NCBI GenBank assembly: GCA_016201275.1
Contig: JACQDB010000149.1
Span: 1 to 64,000, forward strand
Direction of reading: 5' to 3'
Origin: Acidobacteriota bacterium
GTDB taxonomy: Bacteria; Acidobacteriota; Blastocatellia; UBA7656
Length of the DNA: 64,000 nt
Shown: piece by piece, positions 468-7,181 of the stretch
Layout: the number at the start of each line of letters is the position of its first letter
Numbering within the stretch: the stretch's first letter is position 1
Program-made: the position numbers and the translations under genes
Notes under the pieces: generated by a model
Database searches by the model: none
What the model was told of the DNA's origin: nothing
The model's input: only the letters and a program-made list of their open reading frames with translations

Positions 468-646
468 CGGCTCAAAAAAATATGTCAGAAAATATATGCG
501 GGTTGTGAGAAGTGGTCTGTGACCGCCTTCCAACCCAACTGATTTTATTCTGCAATTCGGGATTCTTTATAAATTCGGCATTGTGTTCTTGCTCGCGCCT
601 TCTCGATGCTATAATGCCTCATCATTCTGAAGGAGTAAGGAACGCC

Positions 647-3178
647 TTGCTACGAAAATCTTCCTCAAAATTCCTCTTCACATTCGTCGTGACTATCGCT
701 TTGCTGTACGCTGCGAACTCCGATACTTTCGCGCAAGGCGATAACACAGAAACCAAGCGCCAATCATCGGAATCGGCAAGTCAGGCGGAAGCCTTGTTTC
801 AAAACGCTCTGCTTTTATTCGATAAACAAGAGAGCGGGTCAGTGCGGCGGCAATTACAAGAAGCCATGCATTTGTGGGTGCAAATGCGCCAGCCAGCGAA
901 AGCCGGGAAGGCGGCTCTGCAAATGGGGGATCGGTATAAACAAATCAGAAAGTATCAGGAGGCTCTGGAATATTACCAGCAGGCGTTGCAAGTAAAATTA
1001 CTCCCCGGTGTGGTCAGGGCGAATGCTTTGAACGCTATTGCTCTGATTTATGCCGATCTGTATCTGCACGATTTGGCCGTGAGCTATTTCAAACGGGCGC
1101 TCGAATTGTCGCGCAGCTTACACGATCTCCCTATGCAAACATCTGCTTTGATGGGACTGGCCGATATTTCTCTTCAGCGGGGCGCGCTGGAGAATGCCTT
1201 GGAGTTGGTTACCTTGGCGCTGCGGTTAAACAAGCAAGGTAGTGCTGACGCTGACCCGGCCTTGTTACATTTGAAGGGCTTGGTTAATCAGAAACAAGGG
1301 CATATTGAAAATGCGAAAGAGGCTTTTGAAGACGCTCTGGTTATCTATAAAAAGAATGCCAATGTGGGAGGGCAAGTCAAGATTTTATGCGCGATGTCAA
1401 CGCTCTATCTGCTTGCCTCGCAAAAGCAAACCGCCCGCGAATATGCAGAGCAGGCGGTGGCATTAGCGGAAAAGCAGGAGGATCGTACAGTAAGTTACGC
1501 AGATGATGTGAACACTAGAGAATTGCGATGGAGGGCTTGGCTCAGTCGCGCACGCGCTGAACGTGCGCTGGGGCAAAAAGAGCGTGCGCTTGATTCGTAC
1601 TCTTGGGCAAAACATCATATGGCGGGGATGTGGTGGGCCGTTTATATGGCCACCGAAGCCAGCGCCGTTTCTTTTCGAGAAGAAGCGCAGGCGGCTTATC
1701 GGGAATATACAGCTCTCTTAATCGAACTAGGGCGAATTCAAGAAGCTTATGAATTATCCGATGAGGCTAAAGCGCGGACAGTCCTGAACTTCACAGGAGC
1801 GCGGCGAATGCGGCCATCTTCCGTTATGGAGTCGCAAACGGCAACAGAAAACGAGCTATCTCAAACCATCTTGCGCCTGCGTCTGCGCTTGCTCGAGGCG
1901 AGCCTCAACCGGGAACAGCAGGCGAAGTTGCAAAAAGAATTGGAAGAAGCCGAATACCGGAAGCAAGAGGCGCAGGCACAAGCTGAAATGGCGCATTCCG
2001 TAGAGCGTCTGGTTTGGACCAATCTAATCACCGCCGAACAATTGCAAAAGAAGATGGCTCAGGAGCAGATGGCGTTGGCGGAATTCACTTTGGGCGAGAG
2101 CCATTCCTTCGTCTGGCTCTTCACCCGGGGCGAAATTTTTTCGGCCATATTGCCGCCGCGCCGGGAGATCGAAAAAGCGGTCAAGGCATATTTAGACGCT
2201 CTAGCGACGCCTCCCAATCACCTGCAACTTGAAAAAAGTGTAGCGACGCTGAAGCCGCAAGCCGCAGCCTTGTTTGCCATGTTGTTTGGCGACTTGTCCC
2301 TACAGTTAGAGACGGGCAAGCCTTTGCTCATCGTACCGGATGGCCTGCTCCATTATTTGCCTTTCGAGGCGCTGATGCAAAATGGTCATTACCTGATCGA
2401 AGACCACGAGATCAGCTACGCGCCATCGGCGAGTATGCTGGTGTTATTGCAGGAGTCCACTAGCCGTATAGCCAGCCGCGACAGGCTGGAACTTTTGGCC
2501 GTTGGCGATGTCGTCTTTGAGGCGAACGCGACAACCAGCGACGGCAAAGAAGCGCCGCACGGTTTAAGTAAACGCGCCAGACAGATGCTAGCGGCTCGTG
2601 ATTTCCATTTAACCCAACTGCCGAGGACGCGAGATGAAATTTTAGCGATAGCCAACCTCTTTGCCGCTGACCAACGTAAAGTGTTGATGGGAAGTGCCAG
2701 CACGGAAGAGGCGATCAAGCGCGAGCCGCTGCGACGTTATCGGCGCTTGCATTTTGCTACCCACAGCTTGATTGACGAGCATTCACCGTTTCGCTCGGCG
2801 GTGATATTGACTCCGGGAGAGCAGGGCGAAGAAGATGGTTTGCTCGAAGTCAACGAGATTGCCAGGCTTGATCTGGATTGTGATCTGGTGGTGGTGAGCG
2901 CCTGTCAGACCGGACGCGGACAATTATTATCGGGAGAAGGCATCGTCGGATTGAGCCGCGCCTTTTTCTATGCCGGAGCGCGGTCGGTGGTTGTCAGTTT
3001 GTGGAACGTCAGCGATATTTCAACCGGGCAGTTGATGAAAGATTTCTATCAAAATCTAACCGCCGGTCAATGCCACGCGGCAGCGCTGCAAAAGGCCAAA
3101 CTGGAGATGCTGGGCAGCGGCAAATCAACGCGCCATCCGTATTACTGGGCGTCTTTTGTGCTGGTGGGCAAGCCCTAG
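647..3178 (+). CDS. Secreted TPR-CHAT caspase-like protease
   Basis: An exported protein of about 843 residues. TTG at 647 is preferred as start because AAGGAG lies at 630-635 and the product opens directly with a signal peptide (RKSSSKFLFTFVV..., ending near TFAQG); ATG at 614 in the same frame has no visible ribosome site. Residues about 40-380 are tetratricopeptide helices, then a Glu/Gln-rich coiled coil. The C-terminal 300 residues are a CHAT domain, a caspase-clan cysteine peptidase fold: the HFATHS motif gives catalytic His (about 706) and SACQTG gives Cys (about 753), followed by GEGIVGLSRAFFYAGA. Both catalytic residues are present, so proteolytic activity is plausible but the substrate is unknown. 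An ECF sigma factor and an anti-sigma gene follow on the same strand, suggesting one regulatory unit. Confidence 0.9.
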   Translation: MLRKSSSKFLFTFVVTIALLYAANSDTFAQGDNTETKRQSSESASQAEALFQNALLLFDKQESGSVRRQLQEAMHLWVQMRQPAKAGKAALQMGDRYKQIRKYQEALEYYQQALQVKLLPGVVRANALNAIALIYADLYLHDLAVSYFKRALELSRSLHDLPMQTSALMGLADISLQRGALENALELVTLALRLNKQGSADADPALLHLKGLVNQKQGHIENAKEAFEDALVIYKKNANVGGQVKILCAMSTLYLLASQKQTAREYAEQAVALAEKQEDRTVSYADDVNTRELRWRAWLSRARAERALGQKERALDSYSWAKHHMAGMWWAVYMATEASAVSFREEAQAAYREYTALLIELGRIQEAYELSDEAKARTVLNFTGARRMRPSSVMESQTATENELSQTILRLRLRLLEASLNREQQAKLQKELEEAEYRKQEAQAQAEMAHSVERLVWTNLITAEQLQKKMAQEQMALAEFTLGESHSFVWLFTRGEIFSAILPPRREIEKAVKAYLDALATPPNHLQLEKSVATLKPQAAALFAMLFGDLSLQLETGKPLLIVPDGLLHYLPFEALMQNGHYLIEDHEISYAPSASMLVLLQESTSRIASRDRLELLAVGDVVFEANATTSDGKEAPHGLSKRARQMLAARDFHLTQLPRTRDEILAIANLFAADQRKVLMGSASTEEAIKREPLRRYRRLHFATHSLIDEHSPFRSAVILTPGEQGEEDGLLEVNEIARLDLDCDLVVVSACQTGRGQLLSGEGIVGLSRAFFYAGARSVVVSLWNVSDISTGQLMKDFYQNLTAGQCHAAALQKAKLEMLGSGKSTRHPYYWASFVLVGKP

Positions 3179-3379
3179 GGCGCGAAGCTTGGGCGCTATG
3201 AGATGCCGCTGGTTTCATTCACCCTTGGCGAATCTACTCAACCCTTGCTGGGCAAGTTCGCTGCGTCTTTACAGGGCTTTTCATCTGTGTTTATAGGTAT
3301 TCCACTGTGGTTGCTTCTCGGTCTGCACAAACGGCATGACTCTGGCGGATATGGCGCTGGCCGGTCCGTCGGGCAAGAG

Positions 3380-3964
3380 GTGAAGGTGGTCAAAGCGACT
3401 AATGATAAAGAGTGGCTGGCGTGGGTGCAGCGCATTACGACTGGCGATAGAGATGCGGAAGCGGAACTGGTCAGCCGCTATAAAGATGGCATAGCCGTCA
3501 TCATAGGTCGCATCGTGCATAATGAGTCGGTCAGTGAAGACCTCTCACAGGACACTTTTAGAATTGCGTTGGAGAAGATACGCGATGGCGAGGTGCGCGA
3601 GCCGGAAAGGCTTTCGGGGTTTATCTGCGGCGTGGCGCGCTTTGTTGCCATCGAACACATACGCCGAAGGCGACGGGCTATGAATCAGGAGGAGTTGGGC
3701 AACGCCGAGCAGATTCGAGATTCTCAACCGGATCAATTTGATCAACTGTGGCGCAAGGAACGAGCAGCGATTGTGCAGCAGACGCTCACCGAGATGAAGA
3801 TGGAACGCGACCGGCAAGTGCTGCTTCGTTATTTCATCGCCGAAGAGGAGAAAGACCAAATCTGCGCCGACTTGGGTTTGACCAGTTCACAATTTAATAG
3901 CGTCGTTTCCAGAGCGCTCAAGCGCTTCAAGGAACTATACCTGAAACGCTTTGGCAACTTATGA
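3380..3964 (+). CDS. ECF-type RNA polymerase sigma factor
   Basis: A sigma-70 family factor of about 194 residues. The open frame reaches back to an ATG at 3203, but that would add about 60 residues of non-sigma hydrophobic sequence; GTG at 3380 (or 3386) gives the normal ECF length. Region 2 is visible as EDLSQDTFRIALEKI through ERLSGFICGVARFVAIEHIRRRRR. Region 4 is the C-terminal helix-turn-helix, with VLLRYFIAEEEKDQICADLGL and SVVSRALKRFKELY. It sits between the CHAT protein and a zinc-finger anti-sigma protein, the usual pairing for a membrane-controlled ECF factor. The target promoters are not evident. Confidence 0.88.
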   Translation: MKVVKATNDKEWLAWVQRITTGDRDAEAELVSRYKDGIAVIIGRIVHNESVSEDLSQDTFRIALEKIRDGEVREPERLSGFICGVARFVAIEHIRRRRRAMNQEELGNAEQIRDSQPDQFDQLWRKERAAIVQQTLTEMKMERDRQVLLRYFIAEEEKDQICADLGLTSSQFNSVVSRALKRFKELYLKRFGNL

Positions 3965-4049
3965 ATTGTCGTAGGGCGAAAGAATTTCAAACCGGCTGTC
4001 ATAATTGTGCTGGTAAGCACACTTTTAGTTTAGGGTTGAAGAAGTAGCG

Positions 4050-4940
4050 ATGAATCACGATCACATAGACCAATTCGATTTTATTGACCGCTATCTGATG
4101 GGGAAATTGCCGGAAGCGGAGAGCCTCGACTTCGAGGCACATTTCATTGATTGCCCGCAATGTATTACCCGTTTGCAAACAGCAAACCACTTTCGGCAAG
4201 GTCTGCGTCTGGTCGTCACACAGCCACCTCTAACCGGCGCTCGTCCGCAGCCTGGGCGCACCTTTCGGCACGTTCCGCAAAGGCTTTTGCGGCAACCTAT
4301 GGCTTGGGCTGTGGCCGCTATGCTGATCGTAGCGCTGATTGCTGGCCTGATATTTGGCGCTTATACGCGGCGCTTGCGGGCTGAGGTTGGGCAGGCAGAA
4401 CGCTGGTCTGAGCAATGGCAACGCCGCTACGAAGAGGCGCATCAGGCCGCGCAAGCGGCGGCCAACAAGCAGCAGGAAACCGAGGCGCAACACGCCGCGC
4501 AAGTGCAGCAGTTGGCGGCCAAGCTCAAGGATGAGCAAGCCCAACGCGCAAAACTGGCGACCGCCATTAAACAGCAGATGGGGGTAGAAGGAAATGTGCC
4601 GATCTTTGTGTTGACCTCGGTCAGAGGGGTTGACCCCAAGGGTTCTACGGCGGCGAATGCGGTTGCGCTGGCCTCGTCGTCTGCATGGTTTCTCCTCTCT
4701 GTAGCGCTTGAAGGTGAGCGGCGATTTGCCAACTATCGCCTTACGGTTTTTGCTGAACCAGGTCGGCGTATCGGCAAGAGCCGCATCTTGACGCCAGACC
4801 GGAATGACGCTCTAACGCTGCTTCTCCAGGCGAACCGCTTTCGCCCCGGCCACTACTCTCTGCGCGTTGAGGGCATTAATCAGGATGGCAACAGCGAGTC
4901 CTTCGGCATATACCCTTTTGATATACACAAGCTGCACTGA
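4050..4940 (+). CDS. Membrane anti-sigma factor with zinc-finger domain
   Basis: A 296-residue protein. Residues 1-55 carry an anti-sigma zinc-binding motif H-x3-C-x2-C (HFIDCPQC) after the typical IDRYLMGKL segment. One membrane helix lies near residues 88-108 (AVAAMLIVALIAGLIFGAY), followed by an Ala/Gln/Glu coiled coil (about 110-175). The C-terminal 110 residues form an unassigned extracytoplasmic domain rich in beta-type sequence, probably the sensory part. It is placed 85 bases after the ECF sigma gene, so it is very likely its dedicated anti-sigma factor. AAGAAGTAGCG precedes the ATG. Confidence 0.82.
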   Translation: MNHDHIDQFDFIDRYLMGKLPEAESLDFEAHFIDCPQCITRLQTANHFRQGLRLVVTQPPLTGARPQPGRTFRHVPQRLLRQPMAWAVAAMLIVALIAGLIFGAYTRRLRAEVGQAERWSEQWQRRYEEAHQAAQAAANKQQETEAQHAAQVQQLAAKLKDEQAQRAKLATAIKQQMGVEGNVPIFVLTSVRGVDPKGSTAANAVALASSSAWFLLSVALEGERRFANYRLTVFAEPGRRIGKSRILTPDRNDALTLLLQANRFRPGHYSLRVEGINQDGNSESFGIYPFDIHKLH

Positions 4941-5047
4941 TCTCACCTGATTTCGCGCTCTGTTTATTCAAGTTATTCAAGCTGGCGGCACGAACGGGCA
5001 ACCTTGTTGTCTAGGCCACAAGCATTTGATGGACACGCTATAGCTAC

Positions 5048-5222
5048 CCAGCCTGGTTGTGAGAGTTGAACCTTGTGCGGCGGTGCCGCTTTGAGGTGCG
5101 GAAAGGCTGCGCTTTTCCGTAAGCTATGCTCCCAACTCTTGTGGCTACGCCGCCCAGAGGCTGTGCCGCCAAACTTTTTGAGGTACAGCCGCATAAGGTT
5201 CAACTCTCACAACCAGGCTGGG
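5048..5222. repeat. Long-stem palindromic element
   Basis: Arms 5048-5082 and 5188-5222 are 35 bases long with one mismatch (core GTTGTGAGAGTTGAACCTT) and enclose about 105 bases. Small open frames inside are products of the repeat. The stretch 4941-5712 has no supported gene; it contains this element and a second inverted repeat at 5410-5502. Confidence 0.75.
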
Positions 5223-5409
5223 CAGTTATTTTTTTTTCAAGCGCTGCCATTATTTTCCACCCACCGCCACTTTATGATTGTCTGGTGTCCGATTTAAAGC
5301 GCCCACTTAGGGCGGGCTAATCCAAAGATGAGACCGCCACTCCGGTCTGTCAAACCAGAAATCGAACCATGCAGATGGTCGGTTGCTCAAAAGGAGTAGT
5401 GCCAAAAGT

Positions 5410-5502
5410 CTGGTAGAAACCTCACTGTAAGGGTAGTGACTACGCATCGCGAAAGTTTCCGGTGCGACCCAGAGGGTTCCCTTGCTGTGAGGTTTCTACC
5501 AG
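5410..5502. repeat. Inverted repeat, 16-base perfect arms
   Basis: CTGGTAGAAACCTCAC at 5410-5425 is exactly complementary to 5487-5502, with a 61-base spacer containing further partial pairing. It lies upstream of the secreted protein gene at 5713. It could be a MITE remnant or a structured leader; nothing ties it to regulation. Confidence 0.65.
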
Positions 5503-5712
5503 GTGAAAGTTGATCTGCCACATCCTGCAACTCTTCCTGTCGGCCAACGCCTTCGTGCCATGATCTGGTGCTATAGCGGCGGTCTGCTGGTTAAGGAGAA
5601 GCGTAGACGATGATCGCCTGCGGCAGCGGATGCTTTGGCCTACGCGGCCTGATCTATGCCAGATGAGAATTACCTTCAGCAGTTTCCTGCTATCGAAAAG
5701 GAGAATACCGAA

Positions 5713-6327
5713 ATGATGTTAAGACCTTTGACCATTAATCAAAAACGCTCCATGCGAGCGAGTTTATTGAGCCTGTTTTTCCTGATGTTTATGGCTGCGC
5801 CGCTATTGGTTCCGCAGGGTCTGGCCGGAGTCGCCAAGCCCAAAGGGCCGGTATATGACATCGTTCCAGACAACGCGCTTTCCACCTTATCGGCGGCCTC
5901 TTCAAGAGGCGCGACGTTTTATCTGCAAGGCACGATTTATCAATACCGTACCTTTAATCAAGGCGACTGTACTCCACTCTTCAGTGGTAGTGATTTGCAG
6001 AATCGGGTACTGGGCACCTGGCGTGCTTGGGGAACGGTAGCCGATTCAACGGGCAAAATTACTTTGCACCAGACGCTTTCATTCGATTTCAATGCCACCA
6101 TTGAAGTTCAAGGCGTCAACGGATTAATCGCACCCAATGGCGCAGCCTTGGTCGCCGACAATAAAGGCAACACCACAGGCCCCAGCGAAGTCTTGGCAAT
6201 CGTCGGCGGCAGTGGCGAGTTCAGAGGCTTGAGCGGTGAAGCGGTCGTTAGGCCGTATTGCAACCCGACTCCCGCCGGAACCAATCCGTTTCGTTTCGAC
6301 AGAGCGTTTTGCCTAGGAGTTGAATAA
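5713..6327 (+). CDS. Secreted beta-barrel protein, possibly AOC/dirigent-like
   Basis: ATG at 5713 is preceded by AAAAGGAGAATACCGAA, a good ribosome site, so the upstream ATG at 5656 is not needed. The product is about 204 residues with a Sec signal peptide (SLLSLFFLMFMAAPLLV, cleavage near GLAGV). The mature domain has the spacing of allene-oxide-cyclase/dirigent-like eight-stranded barrels: GTIYQY near its start, GTWRAWGTV, TLHQTLSFDF and the closing AIVGGSGEFRGLSGEA. In that fold the last glycine-rich strand motif is typical; the assignment rests on this pattern only. Three cysteines in the mature part may form a disulphide. It appears to be a single-gene unit. Confidence 0.6.
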   Translation: MMLRPLTINQKRSMRASLLSLFFLMFMAAPLLVPQGLAGVAKPKGPVYDIVPDNALSTLSAASSRGATFYLQGTIYQYRTFNQGDCTPLFSGSDLQNRVLGTWRAWGTVADSTGKITLHQTLSFDFNATIEVQGVNGLIAPNGAALVADNKGNTTGPSEVLAIVGGSGEFRGLSGEAVVRPYCNPTPAGTNPFRFDRAFCLGVE

Positions 6328-6521
6328 TTGAACCGCGTGCAACTTGAGTTGGCGCGGCCAACTGCTTTTGTAGGCCGCGCCAACTATTGCGATAAGCTGA
6401 TAAGCAGGAAGGCGTGAAGCGACTCCTCAGCGCGCCACAACAAATCATCAAGCTGAAAAAAAGCCTTGCTGGAAGCGGTTTGGTATTTCGACGGACCGCG
6501 ACATATAGATGGAAGGCCGCT

Positions 6522-7181
6522 ATGATTCCACAACAAGAATTAAAGAGAATAGGGGAAGAATTCCACCATCGTTTAGTGCTGGGGAACGACCGTTTTGTTA
6601 GCGTAGAGCTTTGTGAATTTTTTCTGCCGCTGCTCACCCAGGCGTTGAGTCGGCGTTTTTACCATCTCAAGGATCCTCACCTCGCCGAAACTTTCGCTAT
6701 AGATACCATGTTGAAGTATCTGGCAGCACCGAAAAAATTCCAACCGGAAAAAAGTAGTTTAATCGGTTATCTCTATATTGATGCGTTTGGCGACCTCTTG
6801 AATTATTTGGACAAGCACAAAAAATTTGTCGAACATCATATAGACATTTCCGAAGTTGACCGAAGAGGCATCACGGCTAGTAGCAATCCAGAAGCGACTG
6901 TGGTCGAGAAATCCGCCTCCTTGGTGGATGAGGTGCTTGCCAAAATCACAGACCCTATAGATGTAGAGTTGATTGAATTGCTGTTGCAACGCGAACATCG
7001 TACCGCACGGTTTGCCGAGGTTTTAGGAATTCAAGAGCTATCCAGGGAAAAGAAATTTGCTGAAGTAAAAAAACACAAAGATCGCTTGAAAACCAAGCTC
7101 AAGCGGCAAATAGAAAAAACTTTCGGGAAACACCTTGAGGCACTCTTGCGCTATGCAAAAAGTCAAAAAAGCAATCGCTGA
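6522..7181 (+). CDS. Divergent sigma-70-family sigma factor
   Basis: The frame begins at 6414, but ATG at 6522 follows a GGAAGG-like site and removes an atypical N-terminus, giving 219 residues. The middle resembles sigma region 2 (HLAETFAIDTMLKYL then FQPEKSSLIGYLYIDAFGDLLNYL), the form seen in atypical ECF factors where GDLLN replaces the usual RN motif. The C-terminus (RFAEVLGI followed by EVKKHKDRLKTKLKR) resembles their region 4. No anti-sigma gene is adjacent; the neighbour downstream lies on the opposite strand. Function as a sigma factor is inferred from sequence pattern only. Confidence 0.6.
   Translation: MIPQQELKRIGEEFHHRLVLGNDRFVSVELCEFFLPLLTQALSRRFYHLKDPHLAETFAIDTMLKYLAAPKKFQPEKSSLIGYLYIDAFGDLLNYLDKHKKFVEHHIDISEVDRRGITASSNPEATVVEKSASLVDEVLAKITDPIDVELIELLLQREHRTARFAEVLGIQELSREKKFAEVKKHKDRLKTKLKRQIEKTFGKHLEALLRYAKSQKSNR

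Follow-up and report, generated by a model that had tools for sequence, protein, structure and literature searches.

What is the task of an exported caspase-like protease whose gene is followed by those of a sigma factor and its membrane-bound holder? The question is raised by three genes at the start of a 64,000-nt stretch of Acidobacteriota DNA (assembly GCA_016201275.1, contig JACQDB010000149.1, positions 1 to 64,000; called the window below), which encode a TPR-CHAT protein, an extracytoplasmic function (ECF) sigma factor and a zinc-binding membrane anti-sigma factor. Some bacterial genomes hold at least 10 TPR-CHAT genes without an assigned purpose, and the 6.84-Mb source genome of the window has 14 full-length ones; the nearest named relatives of the window CHAT protein come from Blastocatellia and Chloracidobacterium bins, i.e. 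Acidobacteriota. We propose, with a probability of about 60%, that the three genes form a single switch for envelope signalling, in which the exported TPR-CHAT protein acts on the membrane anti-sigma factor as a regulatory protease, probably at site 1. The recurrent pairing of exported CHAT proteins with membrane-bound switches in Acidobacteriota and their relatives suggests, at the level of sequence, a protease that activates the switch by cleaving the protein that holds it.

A TPR-CHAT protease with an intact dyad precedes a sigma factor and its probable membrane anti-sigma factor

The first gene encodes what looks from its sequence like a caspase-like protease with an intact catalytic dyad and predicted activity. 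Its CHAT domain (Pfam PF12770) scores 253.8 bits against a cut-off of 24, and both His706 and Cys753 of the dyad are present. In an alignment of 170 CHAT domains, the corresponding His and Cys are kept in all 170, ECF-linked and unlinked alike; for this count and for the tree described below, 11 duplicate CHAT open reading frames (ORFs) were collapsed (184 to 173) and three TPR-only ORFs left out. Identity to orthologues is 61, 42, 37 and 38%. An AlphaFold2 (AF2) model of the protein (mean predicted local distance difference test score, pLDDT, 84.6; predicted template modelling score, pTM, 0.82) matches Csx29 (8eey_B; Z 30.5, 613 residues aligned, root-mean-square deviation 9.8), separases (Z ~27) and DdvA (8rw5; VIA Z 22.6, 578 residues aligned, deviation 8.4). 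The deviations are high over the TPR superhelices, so what these folds have in common is the arrangement of domains, not the detail. The N-terminus resembles a signal peptide, and the protein is predicted by our heuristic to be exported.

The second gene encodes an ECF sigma factor, with 54.8 bits against NCBIfam sigma70-ECF (TIGR02937; cut-off 42.9) and 31.0 bits against Sigma70_r2 (cut-off 24), region 4 scoring under its cut-off. Behind it, the third product combines an HxxxCxxC motif, one transmembrane (TM) segment and an ECF neighbour, as zinc-binding (ZAS) membrane anti-sigma factors do; its zf-HC2 match reaches 19.0 bits alone (cut-off 22.2) and 22.6 bits with frame neighbours included. 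Around residue 84 there is a single strongly hydrophobic segment. The zinc motif is followed by this membrane helix, by another, long helix and by a C-terminal domain that is an Ig-like beta-sandwich in the AF2 model. Structure matches to the Ig-like domain are generic, with no specific relative (best VIA Z ~9). Judging by its family, this protein would hold the sigma factor inactive. The sequence-only reading of this DNA had described a secreted protease with both catalytic residues, followed by an ECF sigma factor and a membrane anti-sigma factor, and this description holds, export being a matter of the heuristic.

CHAT and ECF-anti-sigma genes are linked in both directions

That reading also proposed the three genes as one unit, to be checked by their neighbourhoods in other genomes, and there the proposal was borne out. 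We surveyed CHAT loci with two ECF profiles. The strict one was built from 19 ECFs of the source genome that Pfam confirms and none of which neighbours a CHAT gene; the iterated one includes some surveyed sequences. An ECF gene lies within 3 kb of CHAT in 47 of 80 named loci by the strict profile (48 of 80 by the iterated one). Among loci with at least 3 kb on both flanks the counts are 29/42 and 31/43; the denominators differ because each count used its own model to select the CHAT ORF. For 40 loci of the class, sampled going down the match list, the counts are 14 (strict) and 21 (iterated), and 7 of the 14 full-length CHAT genes of the source genome are linked by the strict profile as against 9 by the iterated one. 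This last drop reflects ECF-like proteins so divergent that they lack a Pfam match (ORFs at L039 and L051) or match only below cut-off (L040 and L043). No ECF match was found in 20 control regions of the source genome (317,456 bases).

Linked loci include Acidobacteriota, Aminicenantota, Calditrichaceae (L106) and Fermentibacteria (L169), as well as Balneola/Gracilimonas (L171, L172) with the ECF ~2.5 kb away; the names come from metagenome-bin records and may be wrong. On a 170-row CHAT tree, built by a quick method with Shimodaira-Hasegawa-like approximate likelihood ratio (SH-aLRT) support only, the linked label needs 29 changes versus 51.5 in shuffles, with 0 of 500 shuffles as low. Of the 86 CHATs in one starred clade 71 are linked, as are all five members of the starred clade that holds the window protein.

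The association also holds when the search starts from the anti-sigma factor. A profile search of 247 genomes of the phylum found matches in 117; from about 150 rows shown we chose 40 places, mostly with matches reaching the C-terminal part (two, G205:C2 and G144:C1, matched in the N-terminal third only). Places already known to be CHAT-linked were left out (e.g. G002:C1, G016:C15, G000:C76, G000:C3, G000:C79, G008:C27, G016:C42 and G039:C27), so in this respect the count is conservative. CHAT lies within 2 kb at 29 of these 40 anti-sigma homologues (14/20 and 15/20 in two sets), and the same 40 places have an ECF within 0.6 kb in 26 cases by the strict profile and an ECF in 37 by the iterated one. 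None of the 20 loci around other ECF genes of the source genome (L074-L093) has a CHAT match.

With 17 CHAT places and 33 Sigma70_r2 matches in the source genome, TPR-CHAT genes and ECF pairs are numerous enough that they might meet by chance or through shared mobility. We consider mere neighbourhood very improbable: the control regions rule out chance adjacency, the reverse survey finds the link again, and deep clades keep it across phyla.

Gene order and the possibility of an output gene

The order CHAT-ECF-anti-sigma is common to the window and to genomes G003, G005 and G001 (CHAT identity 61%, 42% and 37%), the CHAT-ECF gap in these relatives being 67-74 bp. The three genes also occur together in G006, where their locus, L073, lies at the end of a contig. 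A second G003 locus, L057, reads CHAT-ECF, its named twin L096 carrying a 279-aa anti-sigma homologue behind both. More distant relatives (L058-L063) have the order ECF-anti-sigma-CHAT.

Several side observations concern gene order. At Aminicenantes/Saccharicenans loci such as L137, L139, L140 and L144, a single ECF-anti-sigma pair stands between two distinct exported TPR-CHAT genes, of which the first lies upstream on the strand of the pair and the second is convergent. At L040 (C3 of the source genome), beside an ECF-like gene, both CHAT and the anti-sigma gene are broken into two ORFs, through decay or assembly error. At L042 and L067, CHAT genes without a recognisable ECF adjoin genes for proteins of 697 aa (3166-5259) and 624 aa (3811-5685) whose N-termini look alike and which contain a membrane segment; these large proteins could be fused or highly diverged regulators.

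Gene order bears on the main rival to a regulatory protease, namely that CHAT is an output: the sigma factor would turn on an operon for an exported stress protease or suicide effector that does not act on the anti-sigma factor. In its favour, the CHAT gene of the window clade leads an apparent operon that also holds the sigma and anti-sigma genes, and ECF operons are often self-activated. A pure output would, however, not be expected to match the anti-sigma factor in compartment or to occur fused to one, as TPR-CHAT does in DdvA. The Aminicenantes CHAT genes, moreover, flank their ECF-anti-sigma pair on opposite strands, and TTGAC...TATTAA-like, housekeeping-looking upstream sequences often stand before both (seen by eye and unscored; the inspection for ECF-type promoter motifs, also by eye, covered Aminicenantes-type loci only). 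For the window itself this promoter argument is weak, because scanning the DNA upstream of CHAT gave no scored sigma-70 site; by eye there is a TATAAT at ~611-616 with no good -35. All told, we regard an output role as unlikely, though it is the strongest competitor.

Protease and anti-sigma partner match in compartment

For 101 of the 117 CHAT ORFs linked to an ECF, the gene beside that ECF could be assigned. This partner has a TM segment in 93, and in 77 of the 93 the CHAT protein scores as exported by the heuristic; several of the remaining 16 are truncated where a contig ends, or seem to have a signal peptide that lacks a basic residue. By a cut of 1.7, eight partners lack a TM segment; seven of them accompany an exported CHAT, some of the seven falling just short of the cut, and one a CHAT that is not exported.

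A second class was found with the CHAT protein of source-genome locus C125, which matches in 48 of 98 class genomes at E 1e-40. At the 20 loci read, all 20 CHAT proteins lack a signal peptide, all 16 called partner proteins lack a TM segment, and a subtilase gene is next door in 15. The soluble partner aligns weakly, over the zinc-finger stretch only, with the A2 anti-sigma profile (E 0.0091). Such loci (L045, L048, L264-L283) are common in Blastocatellia; they combine a signal-less TPR-CHAT and an ECF with a small, zinc-finger-like soluble protein, and many have a subtilase as well. Exported CHATs thus pair with membrane anti-sigma factors and signal-less CHATs with soluble anti-sigma-like proteins. 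Since compartments match in both classes, CHAT and the C-terminal part of its partner would share a side of the membrane, which fits physical contact between the two.

The protease slot may be refilled by other exported peptidases

At 11 of the 40 places in the reverse survey there is no CHAT within 2 kb. We scanned the large neighbours at six of them (those of L296, L308, L312, L315 and L320 lay outside the scan) and found an M16 peptidase (L285), a TPR protein with an S41 peptidase (L289), a trypsin-tachylectin protein (L291), a penicillin amidase (L316) and a PDZ protein (L286); the scanned neighbour at L300 had no Pfam match. Three of the five with a Pfam match are apparently exported peptidases (M16, TPR-S41 and trypsin), and at L291 (C73 of the source genome, ~49-54 kb) an ECF and an anti-sigma factor of the same family stand beside the trypsin-tachylectin protein in place of CHAT. 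Of 20 genes scanned beside other source-genome ECFs, chosen by size or apparent export, 2 are peptidase-like: L075 has a TPR-caspase C14 protein, and L076 a PDZ protein whose trypsin match stays below cut-off. The comparison is suggestive only of a slot refilled by other exported peptidases. At L075 (C154 of the source genome, 611-4545) a similar triad is built on another caspase family: immediately in front of an ECF and a membrane zinc anti-sigma factor stands a TPR protein that looks exported and has a Peptidase_C14 caspase domain.

A proposed mechanism

In the switch that we propose, the zinc-binding anti-sigma factor would keep the ECF inactive at the inner membrane, and the TPR superhelix would sense either a signal or the extracytoplasmic Ig/coiled-coil part of the anti-sigma factor. 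The caspase-like site of CHAT would then make, or license, the first cut in that extracytoplasmic part, and, by analogy with RseA/RsiW, type III-E and DdvA, a general intramembrane protease together with cytoplasmic proteases would free the sigma factor. The analysis shows the domain anatomy, the intact dyad, the linkage from either side and the match of compartments; from these we infer binding, cleavage, sigma release and a signal. In DdvA, the fusion of proteins that are otherwise separate points, in the classical way, to a task in common and so argues for CHAT as a regulatory protease of the anti-sigma factor.

Several points weigh against this mechanism. Linkage by itself fits an output gene too. 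The signal-peptide heuristic is loose, firing also on 65 of 191 control genes, and few evolutionary switches lie behind the match of compartments, the two signal-less CHATs on the tree sharing one branch. No ECF lies within 3 kb at 33 of the 80 named loci, partly because of contig ends, and 13 of the 42 with both flanks of at least 3 kb still lack one. The set of peptidase swaps is small, and 2 of 20 control neighbours are peptidase-like as well. The active site of DdvA is said to be incomplete, and a TPR-CHAT protein may accordingly serve an anti-sigma factor without proven proteolysis.

This last point leads to a second rival, in which TPR-CHAT is a non-catalytic co-sensor that binds the anti-sigma ectodomain and leaves the cutting to DegS/PrsW-type and RseP proteases. 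The TPR-CHAT of DdvA, fused to an anti-sigma factor with a reportedly incomplete site, would be a case of it. Conservation of His and Cys in every one of the 170 CHAT domains speaks against such a role, which seems to us more doubtful still than that of an output.

Features of the locus

The CHAT ORF formally spans 512-3178 (888 aa); its probable start is the TTG listed in Table 1, which is preceded by an AAGGAG-like stretch. The ECF ORF as called (3203-3964, 253 aa) is over-extended at its start, orthologues beginning near the GTG at 3380.

Table 1. Features of the CHAT-ECF-anti-sigma locus in the window.
Feature	Position	Strand	Basis or remark
TPR-CHAT caspase-like protease gene	647..3178	+	TTG start, 843 aa; Pfam CHAT E 2.9e-75
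Signal-peptide-like N-terminus, residues 1-29	647..733	+	sequence reading and own heuristic
TPR region	803..1570	+	Pfam TPR models, stretch 98-353 of 888-aa ORF; AF2 helices
CHAT protease domain	2258..3172	+	Pfam
Catalytic His706 codon	2762..2764	+	invariant in A1 alignment
Catalytic Cys753 codon	2903..2905	+	invariant in A1 alignment
ECF sigma factor, ~194 aa	3380..3964	+	orthologue starts, sigma models
Membrane zinc-binding anti-sigma factor, 296 aa	4050..4940	+	motif, TM, zf-HC2, AF2
HxxxCxxC zinc motif (H31, C35, C38)	4140..4163	+	invariant in A2 (9 sequences) and A4 (15 sequences)
Single transmembrane segment, ~residues 84-104	4299..4361	+	hydropathy; helix in AF2 model
Ig-like C-terminal domain, predicted extracytoplasmic	4602..4934	+	AF2 strands 185-295, pLDDT ~90

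A second, very divergent ECF-like protein is encoded 1.5 kb behind the anti-sigma gene (6414-7181, + strand; sigma70-ECF 29.9 bits, below the 42.9 cut-off). Its homologue elsewhere in the source genome (L051, contig C78) lies beside a further TPR-CHAT gene and a membrane protein of 333 aa. Between the triad and the ECF-like gene of the window lies 5656-6327 (+ strand), whose product has an apparent signal segment and weakly resembles dirigent/allene-oxide-cyclase barrels.

Comparison with known systems

In the RseA/DegS and RsiW/PrsW systems a membrane anti-sigma factor, which the window shares with them, is cut first outside and then within the membrane. The site-1 protease of RseA or RsiW is not known to be an exported caspase-like enzyme, and its gene does not as a rule lie beside that of the sigma factor. 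A dedicated protease that cuts an anti-sigma factor and frees an ECF is described in CalpL-CalpT-CalpS (PMC11417357); unlike the window CHAT, CalpL is a Lon-SAVED protease of type III CRISPR, triggered by a cyclic nucleotide made by the cell. Another type of caspase occurs with ECFs in EACC2 neighbourhoods (PMC8195603).

Group ECF54 resembles the window in having CHAT genes in its conserved context, along with subtilase and carboxypeptidase genes, and proteolytic control has been proposed for it (PMC8999054). It is described there without an anti-sigma factor, whereas the window has a membrane ZAS directly downstream of the ECF. The ECF54 context resembles the signal-less class, with its subtilase next door at 15 of 20 loci, and not the window triad; we set ECF54 identity aside, as that context is more like source-genome loci C125 and C62 and their relatives. 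No Peptidase_S8 was found among the scanned window proteins up to 8231, the DNA before the window start lying outside the scan. A literature search found CHAT and ECF together only in type III-E papers and in one sentence on ECF54; papers on DdvA, which may mention the split class, fell outside that search.

Type III-E CRISPR loci (Csx29, Csx30 and CASP-sigma) likewise place a TPR-CHAT protease, a sigma inhibitor and an ECF in one locus. Csx29 is cytoplasmic, its system is RNA-guided by Cas7-11, and we know of no evidence that Csx30 is a membrane zinc anti-sigma factor. The window CHAT protein is not Csx29, whose model gave no match at E 0.01, and the CHAT domain of an orthologue scored 24 versus 300 bits. 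Nor does the anti-sigma factor appear as kin of Csx30: no Csx30 chain is among its 12 Protein Data Bank (PDB) matches up to E 1, in which the only anti-sigma hits are weak (3hug, E 0.037; the DdvA anti-sigma domain 8rlz, E 0.78). A PADLOC scan of the three window proteins matched a model with the TPR part only. The sequence-only reading was right to separate the locus from type III-E, yet it dismissed as a look-alike the closest experimentally tested circuit of a TPR-CHAT protease and a sigma factor, in which Csx29 cleaves the sigma inhibitor Csx30 and so relieves the ECF (PMC10028731).

Another close likeness, missed by that reading, is to DdvA-DdvS of Myxococcus xanthus (PDB 8rot, 8rw5 and 8rlz), in which an ECF is held by a membrane anti-sigma factor and a TPR-CHAT of the same fold is involved. 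We identified DdvA from PDB titles and the molecule name; 8rot matches CHAT at E 1.6e-4. The DdvA authors are said to have described a periplasmic TPR-CHAT with an incomplete active site and to have proposed self-cleavage before RseP. In the window CHAT, the dyad is intact. DdvA is a single fused polypeptide, whereas the TPR-CHAT and the anti-sigma factor with its Ig-like ectodomain are encoded by separate genes in the window, and none of 238 CHAT ORFs carries such a fusion, so that strict DdvA-type membership is rejected. What the window does have in common with DdvA is an extracytoplasmic TPR-CHAT, by the export heuristic, together with a membrane ZAS and an ECF, and we read the triad as a split, dyad-intact and widespread relative of DdvA. 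The signal of DdvA-DdvS was given as not known in 2015 (PMC4374960), and a defence island has been described under DdvS control (PMC12288465).

We raise, tentatively and with less conviction than for the window itself, a wider possibility: exported TPR-CHATs may serve a very widespread class of bacterial signalling systems, in Acidobacteriota, Aminicenantota, Calditrichota and other groups, as its dedicated site-1 proteases, with DdvA as its fused form, type III-E Csx29/Csx30/CASP-sigma as a CRISPR-captured cytoplasmic offshoot, and a slot that S41, M16 and trypsin peptidases can refill. Linking many TPR-CHATs to ECF/anti-sigma switches gives them a testable role, in trans-envelope signal transduction rather than cell death. 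If true, Craspase and DdvA, now two isolated cases, would fall into one broader class.

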